A stretch of DNA of 64,000 nt from Brevibacillus brevis (lineage in GTDB: Bacteria; Bacillota; Bacilli; Brevibacillales; Brevibacillaceae). The notes under the pieces were generated by a model that was given only the letters and a program-made list of their open reading frames with translations, ran no database searches and was not told the DNA's origin. A program made the translations under genes and the position numbers. This document shows positions 19,514 through 27,669 of the stretch, in pieces; the first letter of the stretch is position 1; every line of letters starts with the position of its first letter. The stretch spans positions 3,361,501 through 3,425,500 of the forward strand of contig NZ_CP134050.1 in NCBI RefSeq assembly GCF_031583145.1, read 5' to 3'.

Positions 19514-20452
19514 ATGAATGCGATGGTGGAAAACCAGAGAGCGTATCTTCTTTCATGCAGGCTGCCAAGCGGAACGTTCAGGCTTTCTCCACGGAGCGAC
19601 CAGATCAACCCGTACTTTACCAATCTGGCATTGATTTCACTTGTCCGCTTGCAGGAGTGGGAATCCGTTCGCAGCCATGTCGACTGGTACCTGCACCACG
19701 TCGATCAAAACGGATATGTAAACGACTACCGGTTGGAAGGAAATGCCGAAATCGATACAGGCAAGGCGGACAGCGAAGACAGCTACCATACCACTTTGTT
19801 TAGTCTGATTGCCGAGCTCATGCGTGCGACGGGGGAAACCGACTGGATTGCTCAGCGAAAGGACGAGCTCGTCTTTTTGATGGAAGCGGTAGGTAGGCTG
19901 CAGCAAAAGGACGGACTGACATGGGCTAAGCGTTCCTGGAGGGTGAAATACCTCATGGACAATTGCGAGGTAGCGAAAGGATTTGAAGATGCTGCTTCCA
20001 TCTTCTACGAGCTGGGTGACGATGAAGCTGCGCGGGAAGCCGGCAGGCGTGCTGCTGCCTGCCGGGCCGGCATTTCCTCGATGTACAGCGGACTTCGCAA
20101 GTCTTACGCGATGTATGACAGGTCCTATCCCGGTTGGCGCAAATGGTACCCGGATGTCACCTCCCAGGCCTTTCCCATCTTGTACGGGATGACCCGTCCC
20201 GGGGAAGATCTATCGCTTTACGAGCAGATCACACGGGCCTTCCCGCATTTTGATACGTTCCAGACGGGTGATTTGTACCCCTGGATGGCAATGGGGGAAT
20301 GCGCGAGGATAATGGGAGACTCTCGCCGGGTCGAATCGATGATCGCTACTGCCGCCGACCTTTACATATTCGGGCCACGATCGTCGTACTGGCTCATTCA
20401 TGAGGCGGGACGATACGTGGAGCTGTCCCTCTTCTACGGTTCGCCATCCTAG
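19514..20452 (+). CDS. Six-hairpin glycosidase-like conserved protein
   Basis: A 312-residue soluble protein. It has alternating helical segments and aromatic motifs (LALISLVRL, DSEDSYHTTLFSLIAELM, FPILYGM, DLYPWMAMGECARI) like alpha/alpha-toroid glycoside-processing enzymes. Acidic residues in DTGKADSEDSYH could be catalytic, but I cannot assign an activity. GGAAGAG is about 7 nt before the ATG. It lies 18 nt after yppC, so the two are probably co-expressed. It converges on the biosynthetic operon end, 27 bp away. Confidence 0.6.
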   Translation: MNAMVENQRAYLLSCRLPSGTFRLSPRSDQINPYFTNLALISLVRLQEWESVRSHVDWYLHHVDQNGYVNDYRLEGNAEIDTGKADSEDSYHTTLFSLIAELMRATGETDWIAQRKDELVFLMEAVGRLQQKDGLTWAKRSWRVKYLMDNCEVAKGFEDAASIFYELGDDEAAREAGRRAAACRAGISSMYSGLRKSYAMYDRSYPGWRKWYPDVTSQAFPILYGMTRPGEDLSLYEQITRAFPHFDTFQTGDLYPWMAMGECARIMGDSRRVESMIATAADLYIFGPRSSYWLIHEAGRYVELSLFYGSPS

Positions 20453-20479: not shown

Positions 20480-21664
20480 TCACAATCTGTACTTTTCGAC
20501 CAGCGGGATCCCAAATCGGTTCAGCAGGAATGACAGCGCCTGCCAGATCACGCTCCGGGATTTTGGCAGATGTCCCAGGTACACCGCCGTGTACTCTACC
20601 TCCCCTACCGCGCCTCTATCTGCTTTGAAAGCTCCGACTCCTGCGCTTTGATGGAGCAATAGCCCCTGCCTTTCCGCCTCTTGAACCAGTAGGCTGGACA
20701 GCATCCGATACAGTCCGGTTTCCTTGGGCAGCGTGACATCATAGCCAAACAGAGGGGTCGTCATCACGCCGTTTCGCTGAAAGTACCCCAGAATGCCGTC
20801 GAGCCGCCCTTCCTTTTCCAAACCGATCAGATTCAGCGTCCGCTGCTCCATGGCCAGCCTGATAAAGGCAGGGGTAAACTGCGGATTATGCCGCGAGTAT
20901 TTGTCCAGATACAAGGCATTGTACAATTCGATGATCCGCGGTACCTGCTCTTTCTTCAGTTCGTCGTGTACCACGACTCGGTATCCGGACTTCTCCAGCA
21001 TGCGGCGGTCGCGCTTTAGAGTGTTGCGGACTCGCCACCCTCCCTGCTTTGGCCAGTCAGGATGAAACAGGTAGACGTAACGGCTCGGGACCATGATATA
21101 TCCGGCGGCTCTCAAGCCTTCGTACATGGAGGGCTGCAGCCTGGGGCAAACCGAGCGAAAGGCAATGGCATGACGGGGAAATCGCTCCGTGCAAAACCGT
21201 GTGATACGACAAACCTGCCAAGGCGTCACATCCGGATACAGATTGGTGGACAAGAGCCAATTGTTAATACAGGCGATCTGGTTGACGCCGCTCTTCTTCA
21301 TCATCCAGCCGAGCACGTCCAACCCCTTTGCTATCGTCCCTTCCCAGAATGGCGTTTGCAGCATGCGCAGCTCCTCTTTTGCGTACGAGATGTAGTGCGT
21401 ATAGGGTGAGCATACATAGGAATTGTCGTATCCCGTTTCATTGACGGTCAAGGGCATGACGAGATCGTCAACCGTAATCGCCAGGAACCGGGTTCGCACA
21501 TTTTTGACATAACGATCGGATGCTTCTTGCATGAAGGCAGACAAATACGCTTTGGCATATTCCCCATCCTTCATGCTCTCCCATGGCAGTGTGCGGCTTT
21601 CGCTCGCTTCGTACACGGTTACGAGATCACTCTTGCTCACTTGGGGTAAACACCCTTTCCACAC
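20480..21664 (-). CDS. GNAT-like acyltransferase, last gene of the KAS III/ATP-grasp operon
   Basis: A protein of about 394 residues. The N-terminal half (SRTLPWESMKD... through WLLSTNLYPDVT) resembles no named domain I can place. The C-terminal half (about 225-365) has the alpha/beta order of a GNAT/FeeM-like acyltransferase: IPRIIELYNALYLDKYSRHN-type helix, LIGLEKEGRLDGILGYF strands, and a C-terminal helix RMLSSLLVQEAERQG. It would transfer an acyl group, which fits an operon with adenylating and condensing enzymes. GTG 21664 and GTG 21640 are both possible starts; it overlaps the preceding gene by 14-38 nt. Confidence 0.7.
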   Translation of the reverse strand: MWKGCLPQVSKSDLVTVYEASESRTLPWESMKDGEYAKAYLSAFMQEASDRYVKNVRTRFLAITVDDLVMPLTVNETGYDNSYVCSPYTHYISYAKEELRMLQTPFWEGTIAKGLDVLGWMMKKSGVNQIACINNWLLSTNLYPDVTPWQVCRITRFCTERFPRHAIAFRSVCPRLQPSMYEGLRAAGYIMVPSRYVYLFHPDWPKQGGWRVRNTLKRDRRMLEKSGYRVVVHDELKKEQVPRIIELYNALYLDKYSRHNPQFTPAFIRLAMEQRTLNLIGLEKEGRLDGILGYFQRNGVMTTPLFGYDVTLPKETGLYRMLSSLLVQEAERQGLLLHQSAGVGAFKADRGAVGEVEYTAVYLGHLPKSRSVIWQALSFLLNRFGIPLVEKYRL

Positions 21665-22958
21665 GCCTCAATTTTCTCCCGCCGGATACCCGCTCGTACG
21701 GCGTAAAGCGAATTTCCGGGAGCTGGCCTCCATGCTGCCTCACGATTGCGTGCAGATGGCTGGTGATCTGCTTCTGCCATGCATCCATACTGGAATCTGG
21801 ATCGGTCCACACAGATACCTCCAACAGCCATGGGGCGATTTGCCGAACTCGATATTCCCGGATCTCGTCGGAAGCCGCCATCACTGCCCTGCGAATGAAG
21901 TCAGGGAAAACAGGCACCCACCCATTCCCATCCACCTGATGGAACAAAAACACGTCATCCGCTCTTCCTTCGATCGTCTCCAGCGCGGTGTAGACGGAAC
22001 CGCACGGGCAAGGCGTCTTTTTTTCCGACAGGATGTCATTCAACCGATAGCGTATGATCGGCTGCGTCGTTCGGGAAAAATCCGTGATAATCGGGTAAAA
22101 GCGCTCCCGCTTCTCGTCCAGGTATTCCTTTTCCATCACCACGATGTCTTCGTTTACGTGAAGCGTGCCATGCGGACAAGTCACAGCCAGAAAGCCCTCC
22201 GTGCACTGATAGATCTGGTGAACCTCCTGTTGAAATGCCTGGCTGATGTACACCTGGTCCAACGGGTCCAACACTTCCGCGACGGAGATCACTTTGCCGG
22301 GAGAAATCTGCAAGCTCCCTTTTTCCTTCGCCTCCGCCAGCAGCCTGAGCATGGAAGGAGGAGCGACGAGAATGGTGGGGGAAAACACGTTCAACCTGTC
22401 AAGATGCTCGGCCAAAGGGATCAGCAAGTCAAAAAAAGAAAAACGGATCCGCCTCCGGTCCACGGAGGTGTAGAGATTGCTGTTGGCACGCAGGAAAAAC
22501 GCGATCCGATGTTCATCCCGCAGCCGTCCCGGCAAAGCCTTGGCCAAAATCACGCCCGCCCATCTCGCCCGCTCCGCTGGCCCGACCAAAAATATCCCCC
22601 GGTTTCCCGAAGTTCCCGACGACAATCCAACCGTCACGTTACCGATCGCTGGTGTGAAATCCCGCGATTCCTCTGCCAGAAAGGCCACGTGGAAAGCCTG
22701 TTCTTTGTCGATGCCCAGAGTGTTAAGCTCGCTGAAGGACTCCATCATGAGCTGCTTGTCGATGGGCTCCAGCTTTCTCCACTCATCCGGCCGAAGCGTC
22801 CCGAAGCGCTCTCGATAGAATGGGGAGCGAGGAAGCACGCAGCGAAGGAGCTTTTGCACTTGCCGCTCTTGCCATCGCTCCAGCTGGGCGCGTGTTTTCC
22901 ATTTCTTTCCCAGACGCTTGGTCGTCCAGTATTGCCACAATATTCTCAGGATCTCCAT
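21627..22958 (-). CDS. PaaK/CoF-synthetase-like adenylate-forming enzyme
   Basis: A 443-residue member of the phenylacetate-CoA ligase/F390-synthetase-like adenylating group. The phosphate-binding loop is LSSGTSGNRGIFLV (about 110-123), the adenine region is YQCTEGFLAVTC, and the core motif PIIRYRLNDIL is followed by a CPCGS zinc-type loop and the mobile C-terminal domain. Such enzymes activate carboxylates with ATP and may load CoA, carrier or amine acceptors. ATG at 22958 has AAGGAGAG 5 nt upstream. It overlaps the metallohydrolase gene by 13 nt, so translation is coupled. Substrate unknown. Confidence 0.82.
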   Translation of the reverse strand: MEILRILWQYWTTKRLGKKWKTRAQLERWQERQVQKLLRCVLPRSPFYRERFGTLRPDEWRKLEPIDKQLMMESFSELNTLGIDKEQAFHVAFLAEESRDFTPAIGNVTVGLSSGTSGNRGIFLVGPAERARWAGVILAKALPGRLRDEHRIAFFLRANSNLYTSVDRRRIRFSFFDLLIPLAEHLDRLNVFSPTILVAPPSMLRLLAEAKEKGSLQISPGKVISVAEVLDPLDQVYISQAFQQEVHQIYQCTEGFLAVTCPHGTLHVNEDIVVMEKEYLDEKRERFYPIITDFSRTTQPIIRYRLNDILSEKKTPCPCGSVYTALETIEGRADDVFLFHQVDGNGWVPVFPDFIRRAVMAASDEIREYRVRQIAPWLLEVSVWTDPDSSMDAWQKQITSHLHAIVRQHGGQLPEIRFTPYERVSGGRKLRRVERVFTPSEQE

Positions 22959-23797
22959 GCAAACTCTCCTTGGCTCATCTTCCATACTTCCGGACAATGG
23001 GTCGGCAAAATCTTCAGGCTTGGCCAATGGCCGAAGAGCTCGTGCAGCCGTAGCAGATTGTCCCGATAGGCGGGGCCGTCTGCCATGATGGACTGTGCAA
23101 GCGGGTGCGGCAGGACATGACGCCTGTACGCTTCGCTCGACCAGGCGGCGTCCGCGCAAAGAAAGACGTCGCCATGCTCCTCGTCACGCACGAACATCCC
23201 AAACTGCCCGATTGCATGTCCACCCAGCTCGACCAAGAGCATGCTCCCGTCTCCGAGCAAGTCGTAGGCTTCCCCGAACGGACGGTATCTCTCAAGAAGC
23301 TCGACTGGCAAAGCCCGGTCGACGAAAATCGCCCGCTCTTCAAAATCGTTCGGCATCAAGTCAGGCAGAAAGCCTTCCCGCAACGCCTGCAGGCCTCTTT
23401 TCCCCCGTACGTGTGCATAAGCCGAAGAAAAGCAGTACAACCGGGAGTCGGGGAAATCCCGCAAGCCTCCGATATGATCCGCATGAAAGTGGGAGAGCAA
23501 CACTCCGCCGATTTGATCCGCCCGGATACCGTGGGCTTCCAATTGAGCCTTTACACTCTGTTCCGGTCTCGTCACGACAGGTGTGATGGTGGCGTACAGC
23601 CGATATGGAAACGAGCGCGTAGCCTCGAAGAAGCGAGGCGAATAGCCGGTATCGAACAGGAACAGGCCGTGGACGGGATGCTCGATCAACGCTGCAATGG
23701 CATGGAATGAAATGCTGCGCGGCCTGCCTCCCCGGATCGAAAACATCTCCAGTTGCCGGCAATACCCCGTATCCAGCAGGGTAAGCTTAATCTTCAT
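22946..23797 (-). CDS. Metallo-beta-lactamase fold hydrolase
   Basis: A 283-residue MBL-fold enzyme. The metal site HFHADHIGG gives His103, His105, Asp107 and His108. GGHAIGQFG, CADAAW and LPTHCPEVW supply the remaining ligands, so two metals are likely bound. Overall form is like AHL-lactonase/glyoxalase II-type hydrolases, which cleave lactones or thioesters. In this operon an editing or product-releasing thioesterase or lactonase role is plausible but inferred. It overlaps the reductase gene by 11 nt and the adenylating enzyme gene by 13 nt. Confidence 0.85.
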   Translation of the reverse strand: MKIKLTLLDTGYCRQLEMFSIRGGRPRSISFHAIAALIEHPVHGLFLFDTGYSPRFFEATRSFPYRLYATITPVVTRPEQSVKAQLEAHGIRADQIGGVLLSHFHADHIGGLRDFPDSRLYCFSSAYAHVRGKRGLQALREGFLPDLMPNDFEERAIFVDRALPVELLERYRPFGEAYDLLGDGSMLLVELGGHAIGQFGMFVRDEEHGDVFLCADAAWSSEAYRRHVLPHPLAQSIMADGPAYRDNLLRLHELFGHWPSLKILPTHCPEVWKMSQGEFAWRS

Positions 23798-24788
23798 GCT
23801 GCATCCGCCACCATTTCGTAAAAGCCTCGATTCCTTCCGCGATGCTCACCCTGGGCTTGTAGCCGAGCTTCTCTTTTGCCCGGGTGATATCCAGCGTTTG
23901 GCTTTTCGCCAGCACGCCCACCGAGTATCTCGTCAGTATAGGCTCTTTGTAGTTCAGTACCGCTTTGGAGGCCAGCTCCATCACCCATGCAGCCGCGTAC
24001 GCCCGGCGGTACGAAATCTGCCTGGTCCGAAGCGGCATACCCAGGCGCCGAAACACCTCTTTGAGCACCTCGATCATGGTCACTGGCTCTCCGTTTGTAA
24101 TGTTGTACGCTTGTCCCCACGTGCTGGAAGGCGAATCGATACAGAGCAGCAAGGCGTCAACGACATTTTCCACATACGTCAGATCGACCGTCGCCCGTCC
24201 TCCGCCTATCAGCGGTACGAACTTTTCTTCATTCGCCCGGATCAGGCGCGGGAGGATCGCATTGTCCCCCGGTCCAAACAGCGCTCTCGGACGAATCGTA
24301 ACCGTCGCCAGCCCTTCTTTGAAGGCTTTGTCTACCAGTAGTTCGGCCAGATACTTCGTCTGGGCGTATGTATTGGCAAAGCGCCTTGGCAGAGGATCGG
24401 ATTCTTTGATGCCCAGACGGTCTTCAAAGCCGAAATAGATGCTGGGCGTCGACACGTGGATCAGCCTGTGGACTCCCTGTGACTTGCAGCCAGCGATCAC
24501 GTGGGCTGTTCCCGCTACATTTGCAGCATACATGTCTTTGTATTTCCCCCACGGTGACGAAAAGGCAGCGGCATGAAAGACGATCTCCTGATCTCGGCAC
24601 GCCCTCCGAACGGCTTCCTTGTCCGTGATGTCCGCTTGCACGAATCCGATCCCGCGCTTGGATAGCAGGAGCCCCACCTCTTCGTTCCGCCCTAAGGCTG
24701 TCACCAGGTAGCCGTTTTCCTGCAAACGGGCAGCCAGCTTTCGCCCCAGGAAGCCCGTCCCTCCCGTCACTAGTACACGTTTCTTCAT
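23787..24788 (-). CDS. NAD-dependent epimerase/3-beta-HSD-like reductase (OleD-like)
   Basis: A 333-residue extended SDR. The cofactor motif is TGGTGFLG (8-15), FHAAAFSS near 72-79 follows the second strand, and the active-site pair is YAQTK. The C-terminal part matches the 3-beta-hydroxysteroid dehydrogenase/OleD branch, which reduces beta-keto groups of 2-alkyl-3-ketoacids in olefin biosynthesis. Paired here with an OleA-like condensing enzyme, it may reduce the condensation product; this is inference. It overlaps the ATP-grasp gene by 4 nt (ATGA). Confidence 0.83.
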   Translation of the reverse strand: MKKRVLVTGGTGFLGRKLAARLQENGYLVTALGRNEEVGLLLSKRGIGFVQADITDKEAVRRACRDQEIVFHAAAFSSPWGKYKDMYAANVAGTAHVIAGCKSQGVHRLIHVSTPSIYFGFEDRLGIKESDPLPRRFANTYAQTKYLAELLVDKAFKEGLATVTIRPRALFGPGDNAILPRLIRANEEKFVPLIGGGRATVDLTYVENVVDALLLCIDSPSSTWGQAYNITNGEPVTMIEVLKEVFRRLGMPLRTRQISYRRAYAAAWVMELASKAVLNYKEPILTRYSVGVLAKSQTLDITRAKEKLGYKPRVSIAEGIEAFTKWWRMQHED

Positions 24789-25954
24789 TCTTCACCATTC
24801 CATTCGATATCGCTTGTGCTGCATTCCGCCATGCTCATGCCTGTACGGAAGCTCATCATGGCCAAATCGGCAAGCATGCGAGCCTGTTGAAAAAAAGGAA
24901 GCGGGTCCGAGCTGTGCCACACGACATCCCGGGACCTCCGAAAGTCGCGCAGCCAGCGCCTCCCCTCAGCCGCATTTCGAACAGCGGGGAGTCCGAACCC
25001 CACCATGGCCAATCCCAACATGAAGGATCGGTTGCCGCGGGGAACGACGACCTCGCCACTTTCTCCAAAAAATGCCTCCGCCGCTTCCGGTTGGCCAGAA
25101 AACAGATGGATGCCGCTTGTGAGGCGCGGATTGCACTCCAGGACGTACAGCCTGCCTGCCTTATCCTCGATGAAATCGAAAGCGACTTGACCCGAGATGC
25201 CCCGGAGCTTCACAAAGCGGCTGACAAATTCCCTCACTCCCGGGTGATTGGCATACGAAAAGAAAATGGATGCACCTTTCCCCGCTGTATGGATGGTTTC
25301 GTAGTCGGCATAAAGCGCGAGCTGGCCCTGGTGAGCCACAGCATAGCTGCACAGCTGCCGCCCCCGGATGAATTCCTGAACAAGCCACGGCTGCTGACGT
25401 GAGATGGCCGGCAAAGCTCCCTTCGCTGCTGATGCCGGATCTTGCTCGATACGTACGCGTGAGGCGAAACGGGAATATACGGGCTTCAACACCAGCGGTC
25501 CGCTCGCGTTTTTCAGTGCTTCCCGCATCTGCTCCTCCGTCTCTGCCCAGATCGTACGCGGCACGGTCGCTCCCGCCTCGCTCGCCAGTTTTCCAAACAT
25601 CCATTTGTCATGAAGAGGCCGCAAGCTCTCGATTCCCTCCGCGAGGACTCGCCCGACGCAGCCCAGGCGATCAAGTCCATGGGAGACGTGGAAGATTTCC
25701 TCGCAAGTGGGGATCAACAGGTCTGATTTCTCCTGTTCCATGATCCGCATCAGGGACCGAATATACGCATCCGGCTGCTGCCGGGGAGGGGGAACCGGAT
25801 AGCAGCGTGAAACGGCCCTTGATCCTTTGCAAAGGTGATGGCGCGAACTCTCGGCCACGACGACACGATGTCCCGCCTGGTTCATGAGACGAGCCAGTTC
25901 CAGCGTGGCTGGCGCTCTCCCCCCCGTCAGCACGACGTTTTTTCTAGTATTCAA
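24785..25954 (-). CDS. ATP-grasp domain ligase
   Basis: A 389-residue ATP-grasp enzyme, of the class that joins a carboxylate to an amine or thiol through an acyl phosphate. The N-terminal Rossmann-like part begins KNVVLTGGRAPATLELAR. The ATP-binding core shows GPLVLKPVYSRFASRV and WLVQEFIRGRQLCSYA, and the metal site is VLECNPRLTSG. TTG at 25954 is chosen because GGAGG is 8 nt upstream and the Rossmann motif follows at once; the gene then overlaps the KAS III stop by 11 nt. Substrate unknown; likely amide or ester formation on the product built by the neighbouring enzymes. Confidence 0.8.
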   Translation of the reverse strand: MNTRKNVVLTGGRAPATLELARLMNQAGHRVVVAESSRHHLCKGSRAVSRCYPVPPPRQQPDAYIRSLMRIMEQEKSDLLIPTCEEIFHVSHGLDRLGCVGRVLAEGIESLRPLHDKWMFGKLASEAGATVPRTIWAETEEQMREALKNASGPLVLKPVYSRFASRVRIEQDPASAAKGALPAISRQQPWLVQEFIRGRQLCSYAVAHQGQLALYADYETIHTAGKGASIFFSYANHPGVREFVSRFVKLRGISGQVAFDFIEDKAGRLYVLECNPRLTSGIHLFSGQPEAAEAFFGESGEVVVPRGNRSFMLGLAMVGFGLPAVRNAAEGRRWLRDFRRSRDVVWHSSDPLPFFQQARMLADLAMMSFRTGMSMAECSTSDIEWNGEE

Positions 25955-26939
25955 GCAGCAGCCCTCCGAGCGAAAGGCCCGCCGAGGTACCCAACAGCAG
26001 CATGATATCTCCGCGATTGACCCTCTTTTGCACGATCGCTTCATGCAGAGCCATAGGGATGGAGGCGGCGATCACATTTCCGTGGTTCTCGATAATATTC
26101 ATCATGTGACTGCCGGCAAAACCGAGTTTATTTCCCATGATGCGCATGGCCATCCCGCTTGCCTGATGAGGGACAACCAAACCGATCTCTTGTCTGGTTA
26201 TCGAAGCGGCATCCAGCAGCCGCTCCACGAATCCGGTGATCAACTGGGACGTCAGGCGAAAGATTTTTCGTCCATCCATGTCAAATTGGAAGTCCGCTTC
26301 TCTCCCCTTCGCGTATTCACCCGGATGAATCAGGGTCCCTCCTCCTCTGATCTCGGAGTAATGGGCCCCGTCACTGTAGGTCTGCATACGGGAAGCGAGA
26401 ATGCGGGATGTTTCCGCTTCCGGAGTACGGCCAATGACGACGGCTGCCGCCCCATCTCCAAAGAGTACGCAGCTCTCCTTCTGCCCCCAGTTCAACCCTA
26501 CGGAGGAAATTTCCGTAGAGACGATTAAAATGCGCTGGTAGCATCCCATCGCCAAAGATGCAGATAATACATCCATCGCCGTGACAAAGCTCAGGCACGT
26601 GGAGTTTATATCAAAGCAGGGAACCCCTGACTTCGACTGTCTCATCTCTTCCTGGATCAATGCTGCTGTACAGGGAATCTCTTGTTGAGACGTTCCGCTG
26701 GCACATACGAGGCAATCGACATCGGAAAAAGAAAGGCCCGCGTCCTCCAGTGCCCGTTGTGCGGCGATGGCTCCCATTTTGGCTGAAGTCTCGTCCGTCA
26801 CGAAATGTCTCACGCGGACGCCTGATTTTTTCGCAACCCAGCCTGGGGGAAGACGCAGCTTTTTCTCGAGTTCCTCAGCGGTTACTTGCTGCTTGGGCAA
26901 GTATTTTCCTGTTCCCAGGATTTTGACTTTTCTCTCCAT
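25944..26939 (-). CDS. KAS III/OleA-like 3-oxoacyl-ACP synthase
   Basis: A 331-residue thiolase-fold condensing enzyme. The catalytic triad is intact: Cys115 (DINSTCLSF), His258 (VVPHQASGM) and Asn288 (ENHGNVIAASIP). LFGDGAAAVVIG is the usual family segment. The Cys-site context looks more like OleA/stand-alone KAS III than housekeeping FabH. It heads the six-gene operon, with GAGGAGAA before the ATG, and is likely the committed step, making a beta-ketoacyl product. Which starter and extender it uses cannot be read from sequence. Confidence 0.88.
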   Translation of the reverse strand: MERKVKILGTGKYLPKQQVTAEELEKKLRLPPGWVAKKSGVRVRHFVTDETSAKMGAIAAQRALEDAGLSFSDVDCLVCASGTSQQEIPCTAALIQEEMRQSKSGVPCFDINSTCLSFVTAMDVLSASLAMGCYQRILIVSTEISSVGLNWGQKESCVLFGDGAAAVVIGRTPEAETSRILASRMQTYSDGAHYSEIRGGGTLIHPGEYAKGREADFQFDMDGRKIFRLTSQLITGFVERLLDAASITRQEIGLVVPHQASGMAMRIMGNKLGFAGSHMMNIIENHGNVIAASIPMALHEAIVQKRVNRGDIMLLLGTSAGLSLGGLLLEY

Positions 26940-27054: not shown

Positions 27055-27090
27055 ACAGCAAAGAGAGCCAAGAACAATTTCTTGGCTCTC
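27055..27090 (-). terminator. Hairpin terminator upstream of the KAS III operon
   Basis: A long stem GAGAGCCAAGAA/TTCTTGGCTCTC (27063-27090). On the minus strand it is followed by TTTGC. It probably ends the 92-codon gene at 27174-27452 and insulates the operon. The T-run is short. Confidence 0.55.
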
Positions 27091-27173: not shown

Positions 27174-27452
27174 CTAATCAAAGATTGATACGCGAGCTCC
27201 CAGAGCATTTCGACCGGAAAACGTGCGAGAATCGAATTGATCGACACATAGTACTTCCGAAACCATCAAAGGCCGGTTGGAAAGAAGCTCCTGCAATTGT
27301 GAGTCACTGTAAAACTCGTACGCGTAACGATGGAGAAAGCGGATCCGCCAGAGTTTCTGTCCGTGCAAGCGGGTAAAAAACTGGGAGAGGTGCGGACACA
27401 GCTCCGCTTCCGTCTCAAAAACATGCTGACAGGTCTGACAAAAATATTCCAT
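27174..27452 (-). CDS. Hypothetical protein with N-terminal Cys motif (92 aa)
   Basis: A 92-residue protein whose start MEYFCQTCQHVFETEAELCPH has CxxC plus a distal Cys-x-His, which looks like a small zinc finger. The rest is helical and basic. No family is recognised. ATG at 27452 is chosen because GAAGGGG is about 9 nt upstream; the longer open frame has no start site. Monocistronic, ending at the hairpin near 27060-27090. Confidence 0.55.
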   Translation of the reverse strand: MEYFCQTCQHVFETEAELCPHLSQFFTRLHGQKLWRIRFLHRYAYEFYSDSQLQELLSNRPLMVSEVLCVDQFDSRTFSGRNALGARVSIFD

Positions 27453-27669
27453 GCGCTCATCCCCTTCAACATTCTGAATACGAAAAAGACTCCATCCCGC
27501 CTGCATCTGACACATGCGTGAAGGAGCCTTCAGTTTACTGATCGGCTTGACCATTCTGGTTCCTCTGTTACCCAATAGTTTAAACCAACAAAACCTACAG
27601 ATCAAGTAGGGATATGTTTAGCCTGCTCACGTACAATGCCATTTGCCAAATGCGAGCCAAGCGATTGGG

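Follow-up and report, generated by a model that had tools for sequence, protein, structure and literature searches.

The 64,000-nucleotide (nt) stretch of Brevibacillus brevis contig NZ_CP134050.1 that we analyzed (hereafter the window) carries on its minus strand, from position 26939 to 20480, a six-gene operon in which four core enzymes are accompanied by two whose place is taken by other partners in other bacteria. We favor, with a probability of about one half, the reading that this operon encodes a modular lipid pathway, in which the core makes a two-chain lipid backbone and the two variable enzymes of the window add an amino-acid-type head group. Its gene content, gene order, conservation, active-site residues, and the predicted folds of the two variable enzymes are established; from these we infer the reactions, substrates, products, and order of steps set out below.

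The first gene (25944..26939) encodes a KAS III-type ketosynthase of 331 amino acids (aa). It is followed by an ATP-grasp ligase (24785..25954; 389 aa from the TTG at 25954), an OleD-like extended short-chain dehydrogenase/reductase (SDR; 23787..24788; 333 aa), a metallo-beta-lactamase-fold hydrolase (MBL) with a lactonase-like metal site (22946..23797; 283 aa), a PaaK-like adenylating enzyme (21627..22958; 443 aa from the ATG at 22958), and a tandem-GNAT transferase (20480..21640; 386 aa from the GTG at 21640). The KAS, SDR, MBL, and adenylating enzyme constitute the core, and the ATP-grasp ligase and the GNAT the variable part. Every junction overlaps, by 11 nt between the KAS (stop 25944) and the ATP-grasp ligase (TTG 25954), 4 nt between the latter (stop 24785) and the SDR (ATG 24788), 11 nt between the SDR (stop 23787) and the MBL (ATG 23797), and 13 nt between the MBL (stop 22946) and the adenylating enzyme (ATG 22958). 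The last overlap, measured from the adenylating-enzyme stop at 21627, is 14 nt with GTG 21640 or 38 nt with GTG 21664 as the GNAT start; GTG 21640 agrees with the family alignment, which was itself built from that start. The initial annotation of this DNA had described six overlapping open reading frames (ORFs) with junctions of 11, 4, 11, 13, and 14–38 nt, and both its coordinates and its overlaps are exact.

The arrangement is widely conserved. At least 568 stretches encode relatives of the adenylating enzyme in a collection of 84,980 species, each represented by a single genome, and the best 80 of these, for which taxa are known, come from Brevibacillus, Paenibacillus and its relatives, Thermoactinomycetaceae, other bacilli, Marinisporobacter, and cyanobacteria. 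Loci with all six genes in the order of the window (KAS III, ATP-grasp, SDR, MBL, adenylating enzyme, GNAT) occur in Brevibacillus, Paenibacillus, other bacilli, and cyanobacteria. We read 112 loci (L041–L152), which left 103 non-redundant ones after removal of eight duplicates and of L063, a locus without the adenylating enzyme; partners were counted on the same strand within 9 kb, with operon calls from a simple ORF picker. The MBL was present in 93 of the 103 loci, the KAS in 92, the SDR in 91, the ATP-grasp ligase in 87, and the GNAT in 69. All six genes lie near each other in 59 loci and the core four in 83, and the 20 loci without a full core include short contigs (L071, 3.6 kb; L072, 5.6 kb; L140, 5.3 kb). 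With automatic start choice, 85 same-strand pairs of KAS and ATP-grasp genes lie no more than 300 nt apart, and 57 of these overlap by exactly 11 nt, a recurrence that is more than chance. When either strand is allowed, the GNAT is near in 70 loci, 67 of which also have an ATP-grasp gene nearby. The six genes, proposed at the outset to form one pathway, are thus co-inherited.

Family-level counts describe the same spread. TIGR02304, the model that recognizes the adenylating enzyme, scores above its cut-off in 20 of 39 genomes of the family to which the window belongs, in 9 of 398 drawn evenly over the phylum, and in 1 of 29 of the class of the carrier genome G350. The KAS family is found at E ≤ 1e-90 in 80 of 198 genomes of the order of genome G104, which we take to be that of Paenibacillus because the G104 neighborhood (L066) matches a P. 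polymyxa locus (L133).

Initially framed within Bacillales, the core is in fact found in several phyla and reaches Proteobacteria and Fusobacterium. Searches of plasmid records returned 28 with the window adenylating enzyme as query and 25 with its E. coli counterpart, including records from Ketogulonicigenium, Paracoccus, Rhizobium, Shinella, Pseudomonas, Paraburkholderia, Burkholderia, Fusobacterium, and Escherichia. We examined 18 of the 28, together with one E. coli chromosome stretch. Sixteen of the 18 plasmid records have all four core genes grouped on a single strand, with the KAS last in Fusobacterium and the ATP-grasp gene in between in Paenibacillus urinalis. Family members are scattered among hypothetical genes on two Pseudomonas megaplasmids, L159 (pMPPla107) and L168 (pBASL58); an unannotated 456-aa protein of L159 matches the ATP-grasp profile with 281 bits.

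What accompanies the core differs among these 16 loci: a divergent sulfotransferase in three (all alphaproteobacteria); PAP2_3, FA_hydroxylase, and FA_desaturase proteins in two (the B. stagnalis set being assigned by similarity to E. coli); DUF3419 and a GNAT in three Rhizobiaceae; a GNAT, a Rieske protein, and a divergent ATP-grasp protein in four; ATP-grasp and GNAT in one; these two plus a second SDR in one; and no recognized partner in two. The core occurs without ATP-grasp and GNAT in stretches from E. coli, Ketogulonicigenium, Paracoccus, and Fusobacterium. All nine GNAT-bearing plasmid loci also carry either ATP-grasp or DUF3419, and in the three Rhizobiaceae loci DUF3419 occupies the position that ATP-grasp has in Paraburkholderia while the GNAT is kept. 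DUF3419 (PF11899, 146 bits for the one member tested) is presumably the family of the betaine-lipid enzyme BtaA; as the protein has no NCBIfam match and, like the PAP2 protein, no PDB sequence relative at E ≤ 0.1, that name remains provisional. In three loci (L134, L138, L140) the core is bordered by a glycosyltransferase family of the GT21 type, and an MGT-type glycosyltransferase family lies near it in L065, L134, and L138; Pfam was run on the L134 members only, and the other GT21-type members carry HpnI-like scores.

Of 5426 complete E. coli genomes, 671 contain the seven-gene version, which consists of the core with PAP2_3, FA_hydroxylase, and FA_desaturase, over at least 80% of the 6.9-kb query, nearly always on the chromosome. 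In the two records that we read (L167:3001-9882, from uropathogenic E. coli 26-1, and L162:6191-13072), it is annotated by family names only. In the strain examined it is flanked by narI, of narGHJI, and by the tRNA-Tyr/purU region; L162, filed as a plasmid, has identical narGHJI–purU surroundings.

A near-constant core with exchangeable partners, several of which appear by sequence to belong to lipid-modifying families acting on chains or head groups, leads us to read the core as a backbone maker. In the proposed pathway, the KAS would load an acyl chain on Cys115 and, using His258 and Asn288, condense it with a second activated chain or a malonyl-type unit to a beta-keto product. The OleD-like SDR would reduce the ketone to a hydroxyl, the lactonase-like MBL may liberate the carboxylate by thioester or lactone hydrolysis, and the TIGR02304 enzyme would adenylate this carboxylate for transfer, so that the core would deliver a two-chain backbone with a hydroxyl and a carboxyl end. 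In the window, the ATP-grasp ligase might then join an amino acid or amine to the backbone and the tandem GNAT add an aminoacyl or acyl group to that amine; other bacteria would exchange these last two steps for other head-group or chain-modifying enzymes. The apparent interchange of ATP-grasp and DUF3419 beside the GNAT points to a scheme in which either one supplies a head group with an amine for later modification by the GNAT.

The residues on which these steps would depend are conserved. Cys115, His258, and Asn288 of the KAS are unchanged in all 21 aligned sequences, as are His103, His105, Asp107, His108, His194, Asp216, and His267 in all 19 of the MBL, Tyr141 and Lys145 in all 20 of the SDR, the SSGTSG loop and Lys429 in all 12 of the adenylating enzyme, and Lys157, Glu273, and Asn275 in all 46 of the ATP-grasp ligase. 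The initial annotation had singled out the KAS triad, the hydrolase metal ligands, and the phosphate loop of the adenylating enzyme and had taken the enzymes to be active; the alignments bear out each of these residues and, with the catalytic positions of the SDR and ATP-grasp ligase likewise intact, are consistent with active enzymes.

The window KAS scores 523.3 bits against NF005541/PRK07204 (cut-off 402), and the members from E. coli, Ketogulonicigenium, and Fusobacterium fall below that cut-off at 303–351 bits. It had been called OleA-like, an assignment that its residues and scores rule out. In OleA, a Glu (residue 117 in Xanthomonas campestris) followed by Pro was found to be essential for condensation (PMC7064751, PMC4578411), and Glu-Pro is present in all but two of the OleAs aligned in PMC7064751. 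The equivalent position is Ile or Leu before an invariant Pro in all 21 aligned KAS sequences (Ile88 in the window) and likewise Ile or Leu in all seven further KAS proteins from plasmid records. A PDB sequence search with the window KAS gave 248 bits for 4v2p (PDB title 'KETOSYNTHASE'), which we take to be MxnB, 237 for CorB, 190 for the best FabH, and about 48 or less for the 3row/5vxd/4ku3 group, presumably X. campestris OleA. The family profile ranks them in the same way (333, 323, 266, and about 98–105 bits). In a tree of 34 sequences with three FabHs and MxnB/CorB for comparison and OleA left out, the FabHs split from the remainder (support 100) and the 29 family members from everything else (support 95). 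Within this small OleA-free set, MxnB/CorB thus appear as the sister group of the family, which is not nested within them. MxnB joins two activated chains, as beta-keto intermediates (PMC5724707), and the residue of MxnB and CorB at the OleA-Glu position is Val (PMC4578411). By analogy, these nearest solved relatives point to chain fusion by the KAS.

Among the curated models listed, the SDR scores best against the OleD model NF042422 (260 bits). The description of this reductase as OleD-like therefore holds loosely: OleD is its closest curated model, but the score lies well under the cut-off of 580. Across Pfam, NCBIfam, and the PDB its best scores are to OleD and to 3-beta-hydroxysteroid dehydrogenase/sterol-carboxylate types, and the sole PDB chain at E ≤ 1e-40 is 6jkg, a sterol-4-alpha-carboxylate 3-dehydrogenase. 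The earlier proposal that a beta-keto intermediate is reduced is supported by this closest model. The MBL combines the HxHxDH motif with the further His, Asp, and His of a two-metal site, as in N-acyl homoserine lactone (AHL) lactonases (AttM/AiiA); we assume from knowledge of the family that these conserved residues are metal ligands. AHL lactonases are the first matches of its profile, and its own scores against the AttM and AiiA models (77.6 and 43.3 bits) are below their cut-offs (390 and 375). The adenylating enzyme lies above the cut-off of TIGR02304, 'F390 synthetase-related' (522.8 bits vs 251.9), and its E. coli counterpart reaches 755 bits. In PHROGs, the SDR had superfamily-type matches only, and the KAS and adenylating enzyme had none.

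Of the variable pair, the ATP-grasp ligase lies just above the cut-off of NF005315/PRK06849 (412.3 bits vs 406). Its predicted model (pLDDT 95.7) matches PurK, GARS, 2pn1, and PylC with Z scores of 24.7–25.9 in the first ten rows, and L-amino-acid-ligase folds are also among the matches. The sole family match of the GNAT is PF13480. Its predicted model (pLDDT 94) finds Sbb17/Sba18, FemX, MprF-type, and FemA proteins in the 20 best VIA rows, with Z scores from 17.6 to 14.4 and both GNAT halves spanned; the top match, 9wqw, has Z 17.6 and a root mean square deviation (rmsd) of 3.3 Å over 262 aligned residues. The predicted fold thus resembles aminoacyl-tRNA-dependent transferases of the FemX/MprF type, and a common fold demonstrates no function.

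Several observations weigh against a modular lipid pathway as drawn above. Because the KAS lacks the OleA/PpyS glutamate, condensation of two plain acyl chains cannot be assumed; MxnB and CorB lack it likewise, but their substrates are beta-keto; condensation with a malonyl unit in the manner of FabH is just as possible. In the fold comparison, the acetyltransferase VipF has the same Z score as the lowest of the 20 GNAT rows (14.4, with rmsd 7.2) and Z is about 13 for N-myristoyltransferases, so use of acyl-CoA by the GNAT is possible, and comparison of the GNAT with the bacterial ceramide synthase YghO gave nothing significant by BLASTP and a probability of 0.1% by hhalign. Some named partners are far under their cut-offs (KdsR 217/400, HpnI 68/310, and OlsE 67/475 bits). 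No carrier protein was recognized in the operons, for which some neighbors were tested and no systematic search was made; in P. alcaliphilus, a nonribosomal peptide synthetase (NRPS) and a phosphopantetheine-binding protein lie close by on the opposite strand. Five loci have the adenylating enzyme alone (L123, L148, and L149 from cyanobacteria, L069, and L070). Four loci (L108, L117, L127, L130) have KAS and SDR with no MBL found nearby, and four others (L043, L052, L059, L124) have KAS and MBL with no SDR found nearby, so that neither is strictly needed; all eight have a member of the second SDR family (see below) within 5 kb. The GNAT stands without a nearby ATP-grasp gene in 3 of its 70 loci (L062, which is degraded, L101, and L124).

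Other products have been weighed on the same evidence. It is possible, if rather unlikely, that the operon makes a secreted small molecule such as an alpha-pyrone, butenolide, or lactone signal or antibiotic, with the KAS fusing two short chains as MxnB and CorB do and the MBL tailoring or degrading a lactone. The nearest solved KAS structures and the AHL lactonases found first by the MBL profile would fit, as would an exporter above the TIGR01194 cut-off encoded inside one operon (L115, Cylindrospermum), a transporter of the EamA family (one member tested) after 10 of the 103 operons, and the cluster pair c6/c7 upstream in several Brevibacillus loci, a c6 member elsewhere being a histidine kinase. 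The fatty-acid hydroxylase, desaturase, PAP2_3, DUF3419, and GT21 partners, however, better fit a long-chain lipid; no polyketide synthase (PKS) was recognized among the neighbors tested, one NRPS lies near the P. alcaliphilus locus, and the presence of the KAS family in two fifths of the genomes of one order is broad for a single signal. It is unlikely that the product is a small N-acyl amino acid or amide, assembled through adenylation and ligation from a short beta-hydroxy acyl starter that would be the sole contribution of the KAS. PaaK-like ligases, ATP-grasp enzymes (with PylC and L-amino-acid-ligase folds among the matches here), and GNATs are typical of amide assembly, yet the core stands without both ATP-grasp and GNAT in the stretches read from E. 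coli, Ketogulonicigenium, Paracoccus, and Fusobacterium, so that amide assembly does not seem the common purpose. The product first proposed, a small amide, ester, or lactone, is narrowed: the core spans several phyla, and the partners exchanged around it suggest a larger lipid.

The four core activities also pair one-to-one with the steps of an Ole-type beta-lactone or olefin pathway in which non-homologous enzymes would stand in (KAS for OleA, SDR for OleD, TIGR02304 for OleC, and MBL for OleB), and the best SDR model is OleD and the MBL is lactonase-like. OleC and OleB themselves, already noted as missing, are absent from the operon, the adenylating enzyme and MBL belonging to other families. 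We consider this pathway very unlikely, as the OleA glutamate is missing from the 21 aligned and seven further KAS members, the PDB chains presumed to be OleA score far under MxnB, a lactonase would undo the lactone, and olefins require no head-group enzymes. Least to be expected is a variant of bacterial sphingolipid synthesis, which we set aside using the genes of E. coli BL21 as the yardstick. Its spt cluster encodes a CerR-like epimerase-type protein to which the SDR profile can be aligned (hhalign 99.6%), and the accessory families overlap ceramide-decorating ones, but that alignment may reflect only the common extended-SDR superfamily. Neither the GNAT nor the adenylating enzyme is detectably related to its counterpart there (YghO and the acyl-AMP ligase of the spt cluster), and serine palmitoyltransferase is not annotated in the named records around the cluster nor among the neighbors tested, a genome-wide search not having been made.

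If the modular lipid reading is extended across phyla, the operon could tentatively represent a third route to a membrane-type lipid with two chains, one that uses neither glycerol nor serine as its base, an idea that we think may well be wrong. A stand-alone KAS III would fuse the chains, an OleD-like reductase would make the hydroxyl, and the product would be finished by the kinds of enzymes that decorate ceramide or diacylglycerol (GT21, PAP2_3, hydroxylase, desaturase, sulfotransferase, DUF3419, and aminoacyl-transferase-like GNAT) in a range of phyla and, within E. coli, in roughly one complete genome out of eight. If the modular lipid reading holds, an unrecognized class of bacterial lipids has been masked by labels such as 'F390 synthetase-related protein' in many Bacillota, cyanobacteria, and E. 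coli. The natural partner swaps around a near-constant core make both the core product and the partner roles directly testable. The initial annotation knew of no characterized cluster with this gene set, and none was met here: the open-license PMC literature yielded no description among the matches listed, in searches that did not ask about the E. coli locus, and the passages covered from a motility paper on Paenibacillus NAIST15-1 (PMC5072692) hold nothing on it. The pathway is thus apparently not yet described, a conclusion that is weakly founded.

Individual loci depart from the common pattern. A second SDR, one of the partners that we read as pointing to lipids, occurs in 41 of the 103 operons (as a loose, single-linkage cluster), and three members scored 166–217 bits against the KdsR model (cut-off 400). 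Three Brevibacillus-like genomes carry a second, diverged copy of the cluster (L043, L052, L059), about 25 kb from the main copy in genome G020, that has a PRK06914-type SDR family and no OleD-like SDR, as if one reductase were substituted for the other. A decayed copy in genome G014, of the same genus as the window, retains a KAS remnant of 11 aligned residues and truncated SDR and GNAT genes, with no ATP-grasp gene found (L062); the pathway seems dispensable there. In a Calothrix metagenome-assembled genome, a gene for a TnpB-family RNA-guided nuclease (L101:6237-7505) sits upstream of the SDR at the site expected for KAS and ATP-grasp. A broken CDP-alcohol phosphatidyltransferase gene lies between the GNAT and the second SDR in two Paenibacillus loci (L107:12577-12999 and L121:12496-12974); it looks like a decayed remnant, and a link to phospholipids through it was rejected. 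A lipoate ligase upstream in three operons (one member tested) and RtcB, DJ-1/PfpI, protein-kinase-like, and glutaminase neighbors were set aside as lineage-specific. Viral contigs gave two pattern matches, neither of them a relative.

Upstream of the KAS gene, on the minus strand, a terminator-like hairpin (27063..27090) of 12 pairs followed by a T-rich tail would part the operon from the gene at 27174-27605; it is a consensus match, one of five such sites in the stretch where 1.0 is expected. A scan for sigma-70 promoters upstream of the operon found no match, which is uninformative. The Pfam analysis covered eight ORFs of the window, and the flanking genes at 27174-27605 and 19514-20452 matched nothing in Pfam or NCBIfam at E ≤ 0.001.

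Compared with characterized systems, the operon is nearest to, and distinct from, several. MxnB and CorB, of myxopyronin and corallopyronin biosynthesis, are the closest solved relatives of its KAS and share the FabH-type Cys-His-Asn triad and the lack of an OleA-type glutamate (Val there, Ile in the window). Unlike the window KAS, which is accompanied by a reductase, a hydrolase, and a ligase, they fuse two polyketide chains and close an alpha-pyrone, and no PKS was recognized among the neighbors tested here. OleABCD offers the same logic of condensing, reducing, and adenylating, and OleD is the curated family closest to the SDR, but the window KAS lacks Glu117 and head-group enzymes are attached in its operon. 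With the bacterial sphingolipid genes (spt, acpR, aasR, cerR, bcerS) the cluster shares an extended-SDR reductase and, as its predicted product, a decorated two-chain lipid; it differs in that no spt was seen beside it and in that a ketosynthase would form the C–C bond. The window GNAT is predicted to share the tandem-GNAT fold, over the entire protein, with the aminoacyl-tRNA-dependent transferases FemX, MprF, and Sbb17 (Z 14.4 to 17.6 in the first 20 rows), whereas a sequence search of the PDB found no relative of it. Three window proteins lie above the curated NCBIfam cut-offs of TIGR02304, PRK07204, and PRK06849, families that are so far names only, the model tables stating no demonstrated function or pathway for them.

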